Shown piece by piece: positions 51,851-55,412 of a stretch of DNA of 64,000 bases. The translations under genes and the position numbers were made by a program. The notes beneath the pieces were generated by a model. The model was not told where the DNA came from. It saw nothing but the letters and a program-made list of their open reading frames with translations, and searched no databases. Every line of letters begins with the position of its first letter. The stretch's first letter is position 1. The stretch lies in assembly GCA_001917435.1 (NCBI GenBank), contig MNEA01000122.1, positions 1 to 64,000 of the forward strand, read 5' to 3'. This DNA comes from Acidobacteria bacterium 13_2_20CM_2_57_6. GTDB lineage: Bacteria > Acidobacteriota > Terriglobia > Acidiferrales > UBA7541.

Positions 51851-52702
51851 TCATTTTCTCGCGCGCTCGGCTTCCATCTGTTCCCAGGCAGCTTCGGGCA
51901 ACAGAGACAGGTCGTTGAATTCTCCTGCGCCGCGCAACCATTGCGCGCCGTCAATCACGACGCATTCGCCGTTGATGTACTCCGCCATGTCGCTGATGAG
52001 AAATGCGGCCAGGTTCGCCAGCTCCGCATGTTTTCCGAAGCGTTTCATCGGATGCTTGTCCTTGGCGTGCTCTTCAAATTGCTTCGAGGGCATCAGCCGC
52101 GACCATGCGCCTTCCGTCGGAAATGGACCCGGTGCGATGGCGTTCAGACGGATGTGATACTTCGCCCATTCCACGGACAGCGAAGTGGTCAGCGCCAAAA
52201 CGCCAGCTTTGGCGCAAGCCGACGGCACGACAAATCCCGAGCCACAGTTGGCGGCTGCGTACGTCGTCACGATATTCAGCACATTGCCGCCGAGTTTTCG
52301 AGAAATCCAGCGTTTGCCAAAAACCTGCGTGCAGTGAAAGGAGCCGTTTAGTACGATGCCGACCACGGCGTTGAAAGCGTTGGGAGTCAGTTTTTCCGTG
52401 CGCGCCATGAAATTCCCGGCGGCGTTGTTGACCAGCGTATCGATTTCGCCGAATTGTTCCTCGGCCTTCGCTGCCGCGGTTTCCACAGCGCCGTAGTCGC
52501 GCACGTCGCAAGTCGTGTATGCGGCGGAGCCACCTATGCGGTGAATCTCTTCACACGTTTCCCGCAACGGATCTTCCCGCCGGCCGACGAGAAAGATCCG
52601 CGCGCCCAACTCCGCAAACCGCAATGCCATCGACTTGCCAAGTCCGGTTCCCCCGCCGGTGAGGAACACGGCGCGGCCCTTCAATAATTCCTTTTGAAAC
52701 AC
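51851..52702 (-). CDS. SDR family oxidoreductase (2,4-dienoyl-CoA reductase-like)
   Basis: Short-chain dehydrogenase fold, 283 residues. NAD(P) site VFLTGGGTGLGKSMA, strand motif DTLVNNAAGNF, and the loop GGNVLNIVTTYAAANCGSGFVVPSACAKAGV. The usual SDR catalytic Tyr of YxxxK is not there: the lysine remains in SACAKAG. This matches mammalian/fungal 2,4-dienoyl-CoA reductase, where Tyr comes from elsewhere, and NAAGNF is that subfamily's mark. The last 40 residues (GAQWLRGAGEFNDL) also fit. So it may reduce dienoyl-CoA intermediates in unsaturated fatty acid degradation. Start at 52702 is reasonable. Convergent with the deacetylase gene. Confidence 0.85.
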   Translation of the reverse strand: MFQKELLKGRAVFLTGGGTGLGKSMALRFAELGARIFLVGRREDPLRETCEEIHRIGGSAAYTTCDVRDYGAVETAAAKAEEQFGEIDTLVNNAAGNFMARTEKLTPNAFNAVVGIVLNGSFHCTQVFGKRWISRKLGGNVLNIVTTYAAANCGSGFVVPSACAKAGVLALTTSLSVEWAKYHIRLNAIAPGPFPTEGAWSRLMPSKQFEEHAKDKHPMKRFGKHAELANLAAFLISDMAEYINGECVVIDGAQWLRGAGEFNDLSLLPEAAWEQMEAERARK

Positions 52703-52834
52703 TTATCACCGCCTTATTTAGAAATGATCGACCGCGCGTGGACCACTTGAGCGCGATTCTATTCTATTCGCGAGAATAAGGATGATTTATTCGACAGCCG
52801 CCTGGCCCGGGGGACAGAAAGCATGCCAACAACC

Positions 52835-53716
52835 TCAGGGATGCATTTGCGCGGGAATGGGCCGGCCCATGGCTTTTGCGTACTCGGCGGCGTAGAGCGG
52901 GCTTTCCGGAAATTCCTCGCTCAATTCGCGCAAAAGTCTCTGCGCCAAATCATCTTGTTTTTGCCGGCGCGCGGCCAGCGCCAGGAGAATTTTTGCAAAC
53001 GGCTTCAGGTACCGTCCGCTTTCAATGGTCTTTCCAAGTTGCTCCATGCCGAGCTTCTTGTCGCCATGAATTCCGCCGAATCGCAGGAGGAAGCGCGTGC
53101 CGCCGGAGAGGCTTCCAATAATGTAATTGGCCGCCCCCAGCGCGACATACGCGTCATTGGCGTCCGGCTGCTCCGCCAGCAATCGCTTGGCTTGTTCATT
53201 GGCTTCCTTGAGCCGCTTCAACGCTTCGATATGCTCCTTCTTGAGAATCATATCGGCGTCCGATTCCATTCCAGACGACAAGGCCAGAGCGAAGAGCGCT
53301 TCCGGGTCGCGTTCATCTTTTTCGAGGCGCCGGCGCGCGAGCGTTCGAGCGAGCCGGATGGCTTCCTGAAAACTCTTCATGCGCGCGGCGTCGGGTTTCC
53401 CCTCAATGCCGTGCAGGAATCTTTTTTCATTCAAGAAAAAATCGCTGGAGAGAACATCCTGGCGATAAAACTCCTCAAAGAGGTAGCTGGCGGCCACAGC
53501 AACTTCGCCGAATGGCTCGTCCGGATGCTGCGTTTCCCAGCTGGAAAACTTTTCGCGAGCTTCTGTGAAGTTCTGAATGTACAAGGAGCGAAACCCCGAA
53601 GCGAGTTCAGGCACGTTGGTGAATGCTGGGGTGGCACCGTCGGTCTCCGCTCGAGCGTTGCAGACGGCCGCTGAAAACAGCAGCATGAACGCCACGCAAT
53701 GGCTTCGCCCGCGCAT
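52835..53716 (-). CDS. Exported TPR-like protein of the PKS operon
   Basis: Hypothetical secreted protein, 293 residues. Signal peptide (VAFMLLFSAAVCNARAE), then helical repeats with TPR-like spacing: SLYIQNFTEAREKFSSWETQHPDEP, FQEAIRLARTLARRRLEKDERDPEALFALALSSGME, EANEQAKRLLAEQPDANDAYVALGAANYIIGS and ILLALAARRQKQDDLAQRLLRELSEEFPESPL. It follows the methyltransferase gene by 14 bases and so belongs to the same transcript as the type III PKS. No enzymatic motif is seen. It may act as a periplasmic adaptor for the product or simply be co-transcribed. Confidence 0.78.
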   Translation of the reverse strand: MRGRSHCVAFMLLFSAAVCNARAETDGATPAFTNVPELASGFRSLYIQNFTEAREKFSSWETQHPDEPFGEVAVAASYLFEEFYRQDVLSSDFFLNEKRFLHGIEGKPDAARMKSFQEAIRLARTLARRRLEKDERDPEALFALALSSGMESDADMILKKEHIEALKRLKEANEQAKRLLAEQPDANDAYVALGAANYIIGSLSGGTRFLLRFGGIHGDKKLGMEQLGKTIESGRYLKPFAKILLALAARRQKQDDLAQRLLRELSEEFPESPLYAAEYAKAMGRPIPAQMHP

Positions 53717-53730
53717 TTATGTCCCGCTCT

Positions 53731-54327
53731 TCAGAACAGCCCAGGCAAGAAACGCGGCTTGCCGGTCATTGCCGCGCGATAGTCAGGATTGGCGGAGAGC
53801 ACGCGCTCTTCCGTGGAGAGCCGCTGCGCCAGGACTCCAATGTGCGCGAACGCTCCTGCTGCCGCGGTGATCCAGGCCGTGTGAATCAGCGGAAGAGCGA
53901 GCATCTCCGCAAAGACCGCCGCATAGTTAGGATGGCGAACGTAGCGAAAGGGTCCGGAGGTCACCACGCCCAGGCGCGTCGAATCCACCACCTGAACGTT
54001 CCAGTGTTCCCCGAGCGAGCGTATGACCCACCAACGCACCGCGTTTGCCGCTAGAAAGAGGCTAAACATTGGCGCAGCCAGCCACAAAATAAAGGGACGC
54101 CGCAGAACAACGACTTCCAGTGCTGCGCCAAGCAGGACCGCTGTATGCAGCAGCACCATCCAGCGGAATTTTGGCTCATCGATTTTCGCCGCGCCCCGTG
54201 CGGCCATTTCCTTCTGATGCCGCTTGGAGATGCGCAGTTCGACCAGCCGGAGCAACGCCACGGCAAGAAGCAGCCCGAGAAAGGCAGCCGTAGTACGGTC
54301 GCGCAGCAAATTAATGCTCAGGTCCAT
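53731..54327 (-). CDS. Isoprenylcysteine carboxyl methyltransferase family protein (BpsB-like)
   Basis: Membrane methyltransferase of the ICMT family, 198 residues with about five hydrophobic segments (TTAAFLGLLLAVALLRLVEL, VLLHTAVLLGAALEVVVL, FILWLAAPMFSLFLAANAV). The S-adenosylmethionine site is GPFRYVRHPNYAAVFAEMLALPL, which matches the family's RYxRHPNY motif. Its gene starts ten bases inside the end of the type III PKS gene, so the two are translationally coupled. In Bacillus subtilis BpsA-BpsB, the same pair makes alkylpyrones and O-methylates them; this is the likely analogy. The free substrate here is unproven. Confidence 0.88.
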   Translation of the reverse strand: MDLSINLLRDRTTAAFLGLLLAVALLRLVELRISKRHQKEMAARGAAKIDEPKFRWMVLLHTAVLLGAALEVVVLRRPFILWLAAPMFSLFLAANAVRWWVIRSLGEHWNVQVVDSTRLGVVTSGPFRYVRHPNYAAVFAEMLALPLIHTAWITAAAGAFAHIGVLAQRLSTEERVLSANPDYRAAMTGKPRFLPGLF

Positions 54328-55412
54328 TGCAATAGCAAAAATTCGGCGCTGAATCCCGGTCCAAAGGCCGCCGCCACGGCATACTCACCGGCGTGGAGCG
54401 GTCTTTTCTCGAGCCACTCCTGCAGGATGAAAAGGATCGTCGCGCTGGACAGATTTCCGACGTTTCCAAGAATGTCCCAGGAAGGCTGCGTGTCGCACTT
54501 GCACAAGCCGAGCTCCGTCTCGATGTTTCCGAGCAGCCGCGCTCCGCCGGGATGCAGGATCCAGCCCTTGATCTCCTCGCGCTTCCGGCCGTTGCGATCC
54601 AGGAAGCCCTGCACCAGCCCGCCAATTTTTCCGCCGATCATTTCGGGGACATCTTTTGCCAGCAGGATGTGGAATCCGGAATCGCGCAGATCAAATCCCA
54701 TCGCGCCCAGCGAATCAGGAAACGTGTAGGTTTCCGTTTCCAGAATCTTCGGTCCCTGCATCTGTTTTCCGCTGACGACCACAGCCGCGGCACCGTCGCC
54801 GAAAAGGATCGAAGAAATCAGGTTCGCTTGCGAAATGTCCTTGCGCTGAAAAGTGAGCGAGGGTAGCTCCACCGCGATGATCAGGACGTTTCCCCCCGGT
54901 TCGGCCTTCAAGAAATCCGCCGCTCGGCCCAGCGCCATGGCGCCCGCCGCGCAGCCTAGTTCCGTGAACGGCATGCGGCGCACATTCGAGCGGAACCCCA
55001 TCAGGTTGATAAGGTGGGCGTCCAGCGACGGAATCATGAAGCCCGTGCAAGACACCGTGATGATCATATCGATCTGATTGGGCTTCAAGCCGGCGCGCTC
55101 CAGGCATTTTTCCGCCGCCTCCCGGCCGAGCTTCACCGCGTGCTCGATGTACTCGTTGTTGGTTTGCGAGAGCGGCCGCGGCTCGATGGTGTAGTCGAGC
55201 GGGAAAATAGCATGGCGCGTATGGACCTGCGCGTTGTCCACAATGCTCATCATCGCTTCGAGGCGGCGCTCCGGGATGTCAAAGACGCGCCCCATGTATA
55301 CCTTTACGTCCTCGCGGGTGATGGTGTAGGGCGGCAAGGCGGTGGCCGTCGCAGCGATGGTGGGATACGAGGATGCGGCAGCTTCTGTGGATCGATTGCT
55401 CGGGGATTCCAT
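54318..55412 (-). CDS. Type III polyketide synthase (chalcone/stilbene synthase-like)
   Basis: Homodimeric thiolase-fold enzyme that extends acyl-CoA starters with malonyl-CoA. From the ATG at 55412, preceded by AAGGAGACTG, the protein is 364 residues. The catalytic triad is present: C122 in VSCTGFMIP, H287 in WILHPGG, and N320 in GNVGNLSSAT. The signature GFGPGFSAE near the C-terminus is AAFGPGFSAEFLL. Active-site details suggest a bacterial alkylresorcinol/alkylpyrone synthase (BpsA/ArsB type) but starter and product are not deducible. It heads a three-gene unit with ICMT and the TPR-like gene. Confidence 0.95.
   Translation of the reverse strand: MESPSNRSTEAAASSYPTIAATATALPPYTITREDVKVYMGRVFDIPERRLEAMMSIVDNAQVHTRHAIFPLDYTIEPRPLSQTNNEYIEHAVKLGREAAEKCLERAGLKPNQIDMIITVSCTGFMIPSLDAHLINLMGFRSNVRRMPFTELGCAAGAMALGRAADFLKAEPGGNVLIIAVELPSLTFQRKDISQANLISSILFGDGAAAVVVSGKQMQGPKILETETYTFPDSLGAMGFDLRDSGFHILLAKDVPEMIGGKIGGLVQGFLDRNGRKREEIKGWILHPGGARLLGNIETELGLCKCDTQPSWDILGNVGNLSSATILFILQEWLEKRPLHAGEYAVAAAFGPGFSAEFLLLQWT

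Follow-up and report, generated by a model that had tools for sequence, protein, structure and literature searches.

The window (the whole stretch of DNA analysed, 64,000 nucleotides) comes from a 4.46 Mb MAG of a member of the Acidobacteriota resembling Candidatus Acidiferrum; among named organisms, gp2 Acidobacteria and Candidatus Acidiferrum stand closest to it. The minus strand of the window carries an operon of three genes encoding, in order, a type III polyketide synthase (PKS), an ICMT-family methyltransferase and a probably exported TPR protein (Table 1).

Table 1. Features of the PKS-ICMT-TPR operon, numbered along the window
Feature	Position	Strand	Basis
Type III PKS, 364 aa, ATG start	54318..55412	-	ORF; Pfam PF00195/PF02797; triad Cys154-His287-Asn320
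ICMT-family integral-membrane methyltransferase, 198 aa	53731..54327	-	ORF; PF04140 2.5e-21
Exported TPR protein, 293 aa, repeatedly linked to type III PKS genes	52835..53716	-	TPR_14; all-alpha model; linkage
PKS/ICMT overlap, 10 bases, ATGGACCTGA	54318..54327	-	ORF ends; spacing kept in relatives
Sec-type signal peptide of the TPR protein, ~23 aa	53648..53716	-	Judged by eye

The start of the ICMT gene sits in the end of the PKS gene. The PKS stop codon TGA (54320-54318) falls within the overlap sequence, which is thus exactly 10 bases long, and a spacer of 14 bases (53717-53730) follows between the ICMT and TPR genes. The original prediction had described this arrangement, with a secreted TPR protein as the third gene, and the ORF coordinates agree with it to the base. 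The -10 spacing between PKS and ICMT is common to nearly all of ~30 relatives, and the two genes are probably translationally coupled through the overlap. Values of dN/dS against four relatives are low for the PKS (0.02-0.08), ICMT (0.07-0.11) and TPR (0.08-0.14) genes, so that all three are under purifying selection. A scan for promoters and terminators gave no signal above chance for the operon.

The downstream SDR gene (51851-52702, dienoyl-CoA-reductase-like) was considered as a fourth member of the operon and rejected. Its distance from the operon varies from ~70 to >1000 bp and it persists where the TPR gene has been lost; it is therefore taken as a neighbour. An antisense ORF of 283 aa (52823-53674, plus strand) lies opposite the TPR gene; this is typical of high-GC coding DNA and it is not a gene candidate.

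The synthase and the methyltransferase

Assignment of the enzyme classes of the operon by homology is well supported. The PKS has both the N- and C-terminal domains of the chalcone/stilbene synthase superfamily (Chal_sti_synt_N, 4e-23; Chal_sti_synt_C, 2e-20), and C154, H287 and N320, corresponding to the Cys-His-Asn triad of a type III PKS, are invariant in an alignment of 19 sequences. The best match in the PDB is Pks11 of Mycobacterium tuberculosis (PDB 4jao, 8.9e-66). This is the closest solved PKS and can be aligned over the full length, yet it is distant. Pks11 is an alkylpyrone synthase.

In a profile search the PKS also matches 1u0m, a putative PKS of THN-synthase-like type, and it scores 181 of 425 bits against the DpgA model. 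These matches would suit a product that is a short polyhydroxyaromatic of THN or DHPA-CoA type, methylated by the ICMT-family protein. Such a product is very improbable given that the best match is Pks11, that the partner methyltransferase belongs to an integral-membrane family, and that the ACP and KAS genes found beside the PKS in relatives fit a fatty-acyl starter. As a class, an alkylresorcinol or an alkylpyrone would be expected, the sequence fitting either ring. A tryptophan near the catalytic histidine (W284; compare Trp281 of ArsB in PMC9927152) was tried as a predictor of resorcinol against pyrone and rejected; it is also present in Pks11 and absent in L075, a TPR-linked relative.

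Two members of the genus have second copies of a type III PKS gene without a TPR gene (G369:C28:22479-23567 and G349:C25:21598-22521). That of G349 adjoins an FAD hydroxylase gene.

The second protein has the ICMT domain and the RHPNY...E motif of the ICMT/PEMT membrane methyltransferases, and residues R128, H132-P133-N134-Y135, E141, R169 and E173 are invariant in alignment with its relatives. It scores 46 bits against the NCBIfam model for true protein-S-isoprenylcysteine methyltransferases (NF040696, cut-off 160), and a score so far below the cut-off fits another lipid as substrate. The N-terminus of the window protein (~54289-54312) contains an insert of eight residues after MDLSI that is absent from 17 of 17 aligned relatives.

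In BpsA-BpsB of Bacillus subtilis a type III PKS and a methyltransferase make alkylpyrones (PMC5686519). In the window operon a type III PKS gene and an ICMT-family gene likewise lie side by side in the same orientation, the PKS triad is present, and the product is likely an aliphatic polyketide. The predicted resemblance to that pair thus holds in the sense of working alike, on the grounds of gene class, adjacency and the triad. The operon differs from BpsA-BpsB in its exported TPR protein, its Gram-negative host, and an FAD hydroxylase-YceI pair encoded at another place in that genome.

The TPR protein and its linkage to type III PKS genes

The third protein is formed of TPR repeats (TPR_14, 1e-7 in Pfam) and is modelled as an all-alpha solenoid (pLDDT 87.5). 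Its N-terminus is of Sec type, with two arginine residues, a hydrophobic stretch from residue 10 and A-R-A before residue 24. The signal peptide was assigned by eye and from hydropathy, and an N-terminus of this type is common to the window protein and its 23 relatives. Beyond the signal peptide the protein shows neither another membrane-like stretch nor a consistent lipobox. A Foldseek search with the model returned generic TPR proteins (TM <0.65), and its resemblance to many such proteins offers no specific clue; a sequence-profile search of the PDB gave no real match, and no lipid-binding signature was found in the protein. Kinship with the lipid-transfer TPR proteins RMD1-3/PTPIP51 was considered on the strength of a weak top Foldseek rank and discarded, there being no PF21033 match at the window locus. 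A search for the TPR gene on plasmids found none.

The closest relatives of the window TPR protein outside the genus (L087-L093) are not encoded beside PKS genes. Unlinked paralogues adjoin sigma-factor, pstS/ppk-like or lipocalin-like genes; at L094, L095 and L099 the TPR gene is followed directly by one for a pstS-like phosphate-binding protein, and beyond that by a polyphosphate-kinase-like gene, a further partnership that recurs in this family. The family must therefore have other roles. The window TPR protein groups by sequence with unlinked ones, suggesting that linkage to PKS has been gained or lost several times, on FastTree topologies that are rough, several deep TPR nodes having low support.

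These paralogues would fit a general factor of outer-membrane or periplasm biogenesis, merely co-regulated with the lipid pathway, for example under envelope stress. Some members of the family give weak matches to the NCBIfam YbgF and BamD models, with E ~1e-3, which is what any TPR protein may give. We think such a role distinctly unlikely, as the repeated presence of YceI and PKS genes beside members of the family points to a part in handling lipids.

The PKS and TPR genes occur together in 30 of the 36 genomes examined from the genus, the PKS alone in two and the TPR alone in none; four have neither. In one of the two with PKS alone (G347) the PKS gene lies at the end of a contig. Genes for TypA, SDR and PIG-L are also syntenic within the genus, so synteny there is by itself weak proof of a TPR partnership. 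L026 (also G372) lacks the TPR gene, and in L027 (also G355) a frameshift or deletion has split it; the PKS and ICMT genes of both loci are intact. The contig of another locus, L012, is labelled Betaproteobacteria; its gene content and identity clearly place it in the acidobacterial clade, and it is thus probably a mislabelled MAG.

The wider survey drew evenly on the phylum, with 347 Acidobacteriota genomes. Besides the window's genome, 19 in this sample have a TPR gene of the same family beside a type III PKS gene, always upstream and on the same strand, the aligned stretches being 11-731 bp apart. Within the same class the TPR gene adjoins the PKS in 17 of 21 genomes with a strong PKS match. 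A further family (G389) has the TPR gene directly upstream of the PKS, bringing the total to 20 other genomes; its locus L166 is a single-strand run ACP-KAS-TPR-PKS, suggesting a dedicated supply of acyl starter. In the PKS tree, also rough in topology, the TPR-linked enzymes fall into at least three deep lineages. One is the window clade, to which G278 is sister, another a Terriglobales-like clade, and the third is represented by G211 within a clade of ICMT-linked enzymes. The gene order is reshuffled (PKS-ICMT-TPR in the window versus TPR-PKS elsewhere) while the linkage is retained. The TPR gene is a genuine partner of the type III PKS, the rearranged linkage outside the genus being the stronger test.

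It might be argued that the operon is a plain two-gene system of BpsA-BpsB type making methylated alkylpyrones, with the TPR protein an envelope housekeeping neighbour that shares the transcript. Adjacent PKS-ICMT pairs without a TPR gene occur at ~27 loci elsewhere in the phylum (the pair is thus of a known kind), and the loci with lost or broken TPR genes and the general synteny of the genus are in keeping with such a view. We nevertheless regard it as unlikely, since the TPR-PKS linkage is seen again in other families with a changed gene order and spans three PKS lineages, and no member of the genus has the TPR gene without the PKS.

That the TPR gene is new to the BpsA-BpsB picture, as originally proposed, is borne out and extended by its linkage to PKS outside the genus. 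Its conservation with the PKS-ICMT pair holds in part. It is kept with the pair in 30 of the 32 PKS-bearing genomes of the genus; outside, it accompanies the PKS but not ICMT. The combination of TPR and ICMT is seen only in the window's genus, the TPR gene being found elsewhere with genes for an FAD hydroxylase, YceI, or ACP and KAS.

An FAD hydroxylase and a YceI lipocalin at a second locus

In one relative (G121, locus L078) the operon reads TPR-PKS-FAD-YceI, and in another (G278, locus L075) it reads TPR-YceI-PKS, with genes for ACP and KAS running divergently. Next to these ACP-KAS genes of G278 is a gene of the fatty acid hydroxylase superfamily (L075:10991-12037). At L096 and L097 the TPR gene is followed by YceI without a PKS. 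A YceI gene near the PKS, confirmed with Pfam at the loci, is found in nine genomes, where a rough estimate for ~66 loci would give ~0.2.

Since TPR/PKS loci elsewhere carry FAD and YceI genes, the window's own genome was searched for both, and both are present. At G000:C41:11583-12677 an FAD_binding_3 hydroxylase is encoded that belongs to the PKS-linked family (498 bits), with a YceI gene ~20 bp downstream. The hydroxylase is 51% identical to that of the TPR-PKS-FAD-YceI operon, and the FAD-YceI pair is kept in seven of seven other loci checked in the genus. PKS and FAD genes occur together in 27 genomes of the genus, the PKS alone in five (detectable FAD gene absent in five of 32 PKS-bearing members), the FAD gene alone in one and neither in three (Fisher p = 0.028, ignoring kinship among genomes). 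YceI is thus genetically tied to the pathway, through the pair in the window's own genome and through its position near the PKS in nine others.

A proposed pathway encoded at two loci

Operons of PKS, methyltransferase and FAD oxidoreductase make alkylresorcinols in Planctomycetota, with a relation to the cyanobacterial hierridins (PMC10896814), and polyketide quinones in actinobacteria (PMC9927152). The window's genome encodes what may be the same toolkit as HidABC and the planctomycetal operons (PMC10896814) and as SrsABC and PkqABC (PMC9927152), whose products are alkylresorcinols or polyketide quinones; its FAD_binding_3 protein is a candidate counterpart of HidB, SrsC and PkqC. It differs from these one-operon systems in that the FAD gene (contig C41) is unlinked to the PKS (contig C37) and paired with YceI, and in having a TPR gene in the PKS operon.

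The type III PKS operon of 'Saltatorellus ferox' carries genes for a lipoprotein and a lipid/isoprenoid-binding protein alongside the PKS and methyltransferases (PMC10896814). No TPR protein is reported there, the phylum is another and its envelope genes are unstudied. In searches of the literature for a TPR or YceI partner of a type III PKS, this remark was all that was found. A tetratricopeptide gene near the loseolamycin PKS was rejected as a precedent, since it is separated from the PKS by six gene positions and its surroundings are ordinary. Among the lipids that YceI lipocalins bind in the periplasm is ubiquinone-8 (PMC9113575). The LcoA-BcnA system resembles the present one in tying a periplasmic YceI lipocalin to a membrane redox-lipid process, the partner there being cytochrome b561 and here a type III PKS pathway (PMC9113575).

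From the known PKS-methyltransferase-FAD operons, the lipid binding of YceI and the 'S. ferox' operon (PMC10896814; PMC9113575; PMC9927152) we infer a split pathway. On balance we favour the operon being one of two loci of such a pathway, making a membrane phenolic or pyrone lipid, with TPR and YceI proteins in the periplasm. The PKS would extend a long-chain acyl starter and cyclise it to an alkylresorcinol or alkylpyrone. The ICMT-family enzyme, probably coupled to the PKS, would methylate this product in the inner membrane, and the C41 hydroxylase could then hydroxylate the ring, possibly leading to a polyketide (hydro)quinone. The predicted product is a methylated, probably hydroxylated alkylresorcinol or pyrone, perhaps a polyketide quinone. 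YceI may act as periplasmic carrier of the lipid or quinone, with the TPR protein as a putative scaffold or docking partner, either passing the lipid across the periplasm or retaining it in the envelope. The original suggestion that the TPR protein may move or anchor a lipid product outside is thus plausible and strengthened by the recurrent YceI partners, while still a conjecture.

To call the operon an undescribed biosynthetic system, as was proposed, is too strong. The biosynthetic core is of a familiar type; what the literature searched does not describe is the TPR partner and the TPR-YceI tie. The TPR protein is likely a real but undescribed envelope component of a partly known lipid pathway. 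More tentatively, the Acidobacteriota might possess a Gram-negative polyketide-quinone or antioxidant phenolic-lipid system, in which a TPR scaffold and a YceI lipocalin together form a dedicated periplasmic shuttle, ferrying a redox lipid between inner membrane and remaining envelope. Within one genome, the PKS-ICMT-TPR locus and the FAD-YceI locus are predicted to serve a single pathway. The type III PKS lipids of Gram-negative bacteria have mostly been described through their cytoplasmic enzymes, and the route and work of the products in the envelope have been little covered. The conserved TPR protein, probably exported, and the lipocalin, both linked to the synthase, provide two concrete genes with which to approach this question, in a phylum that is abundant in soils.
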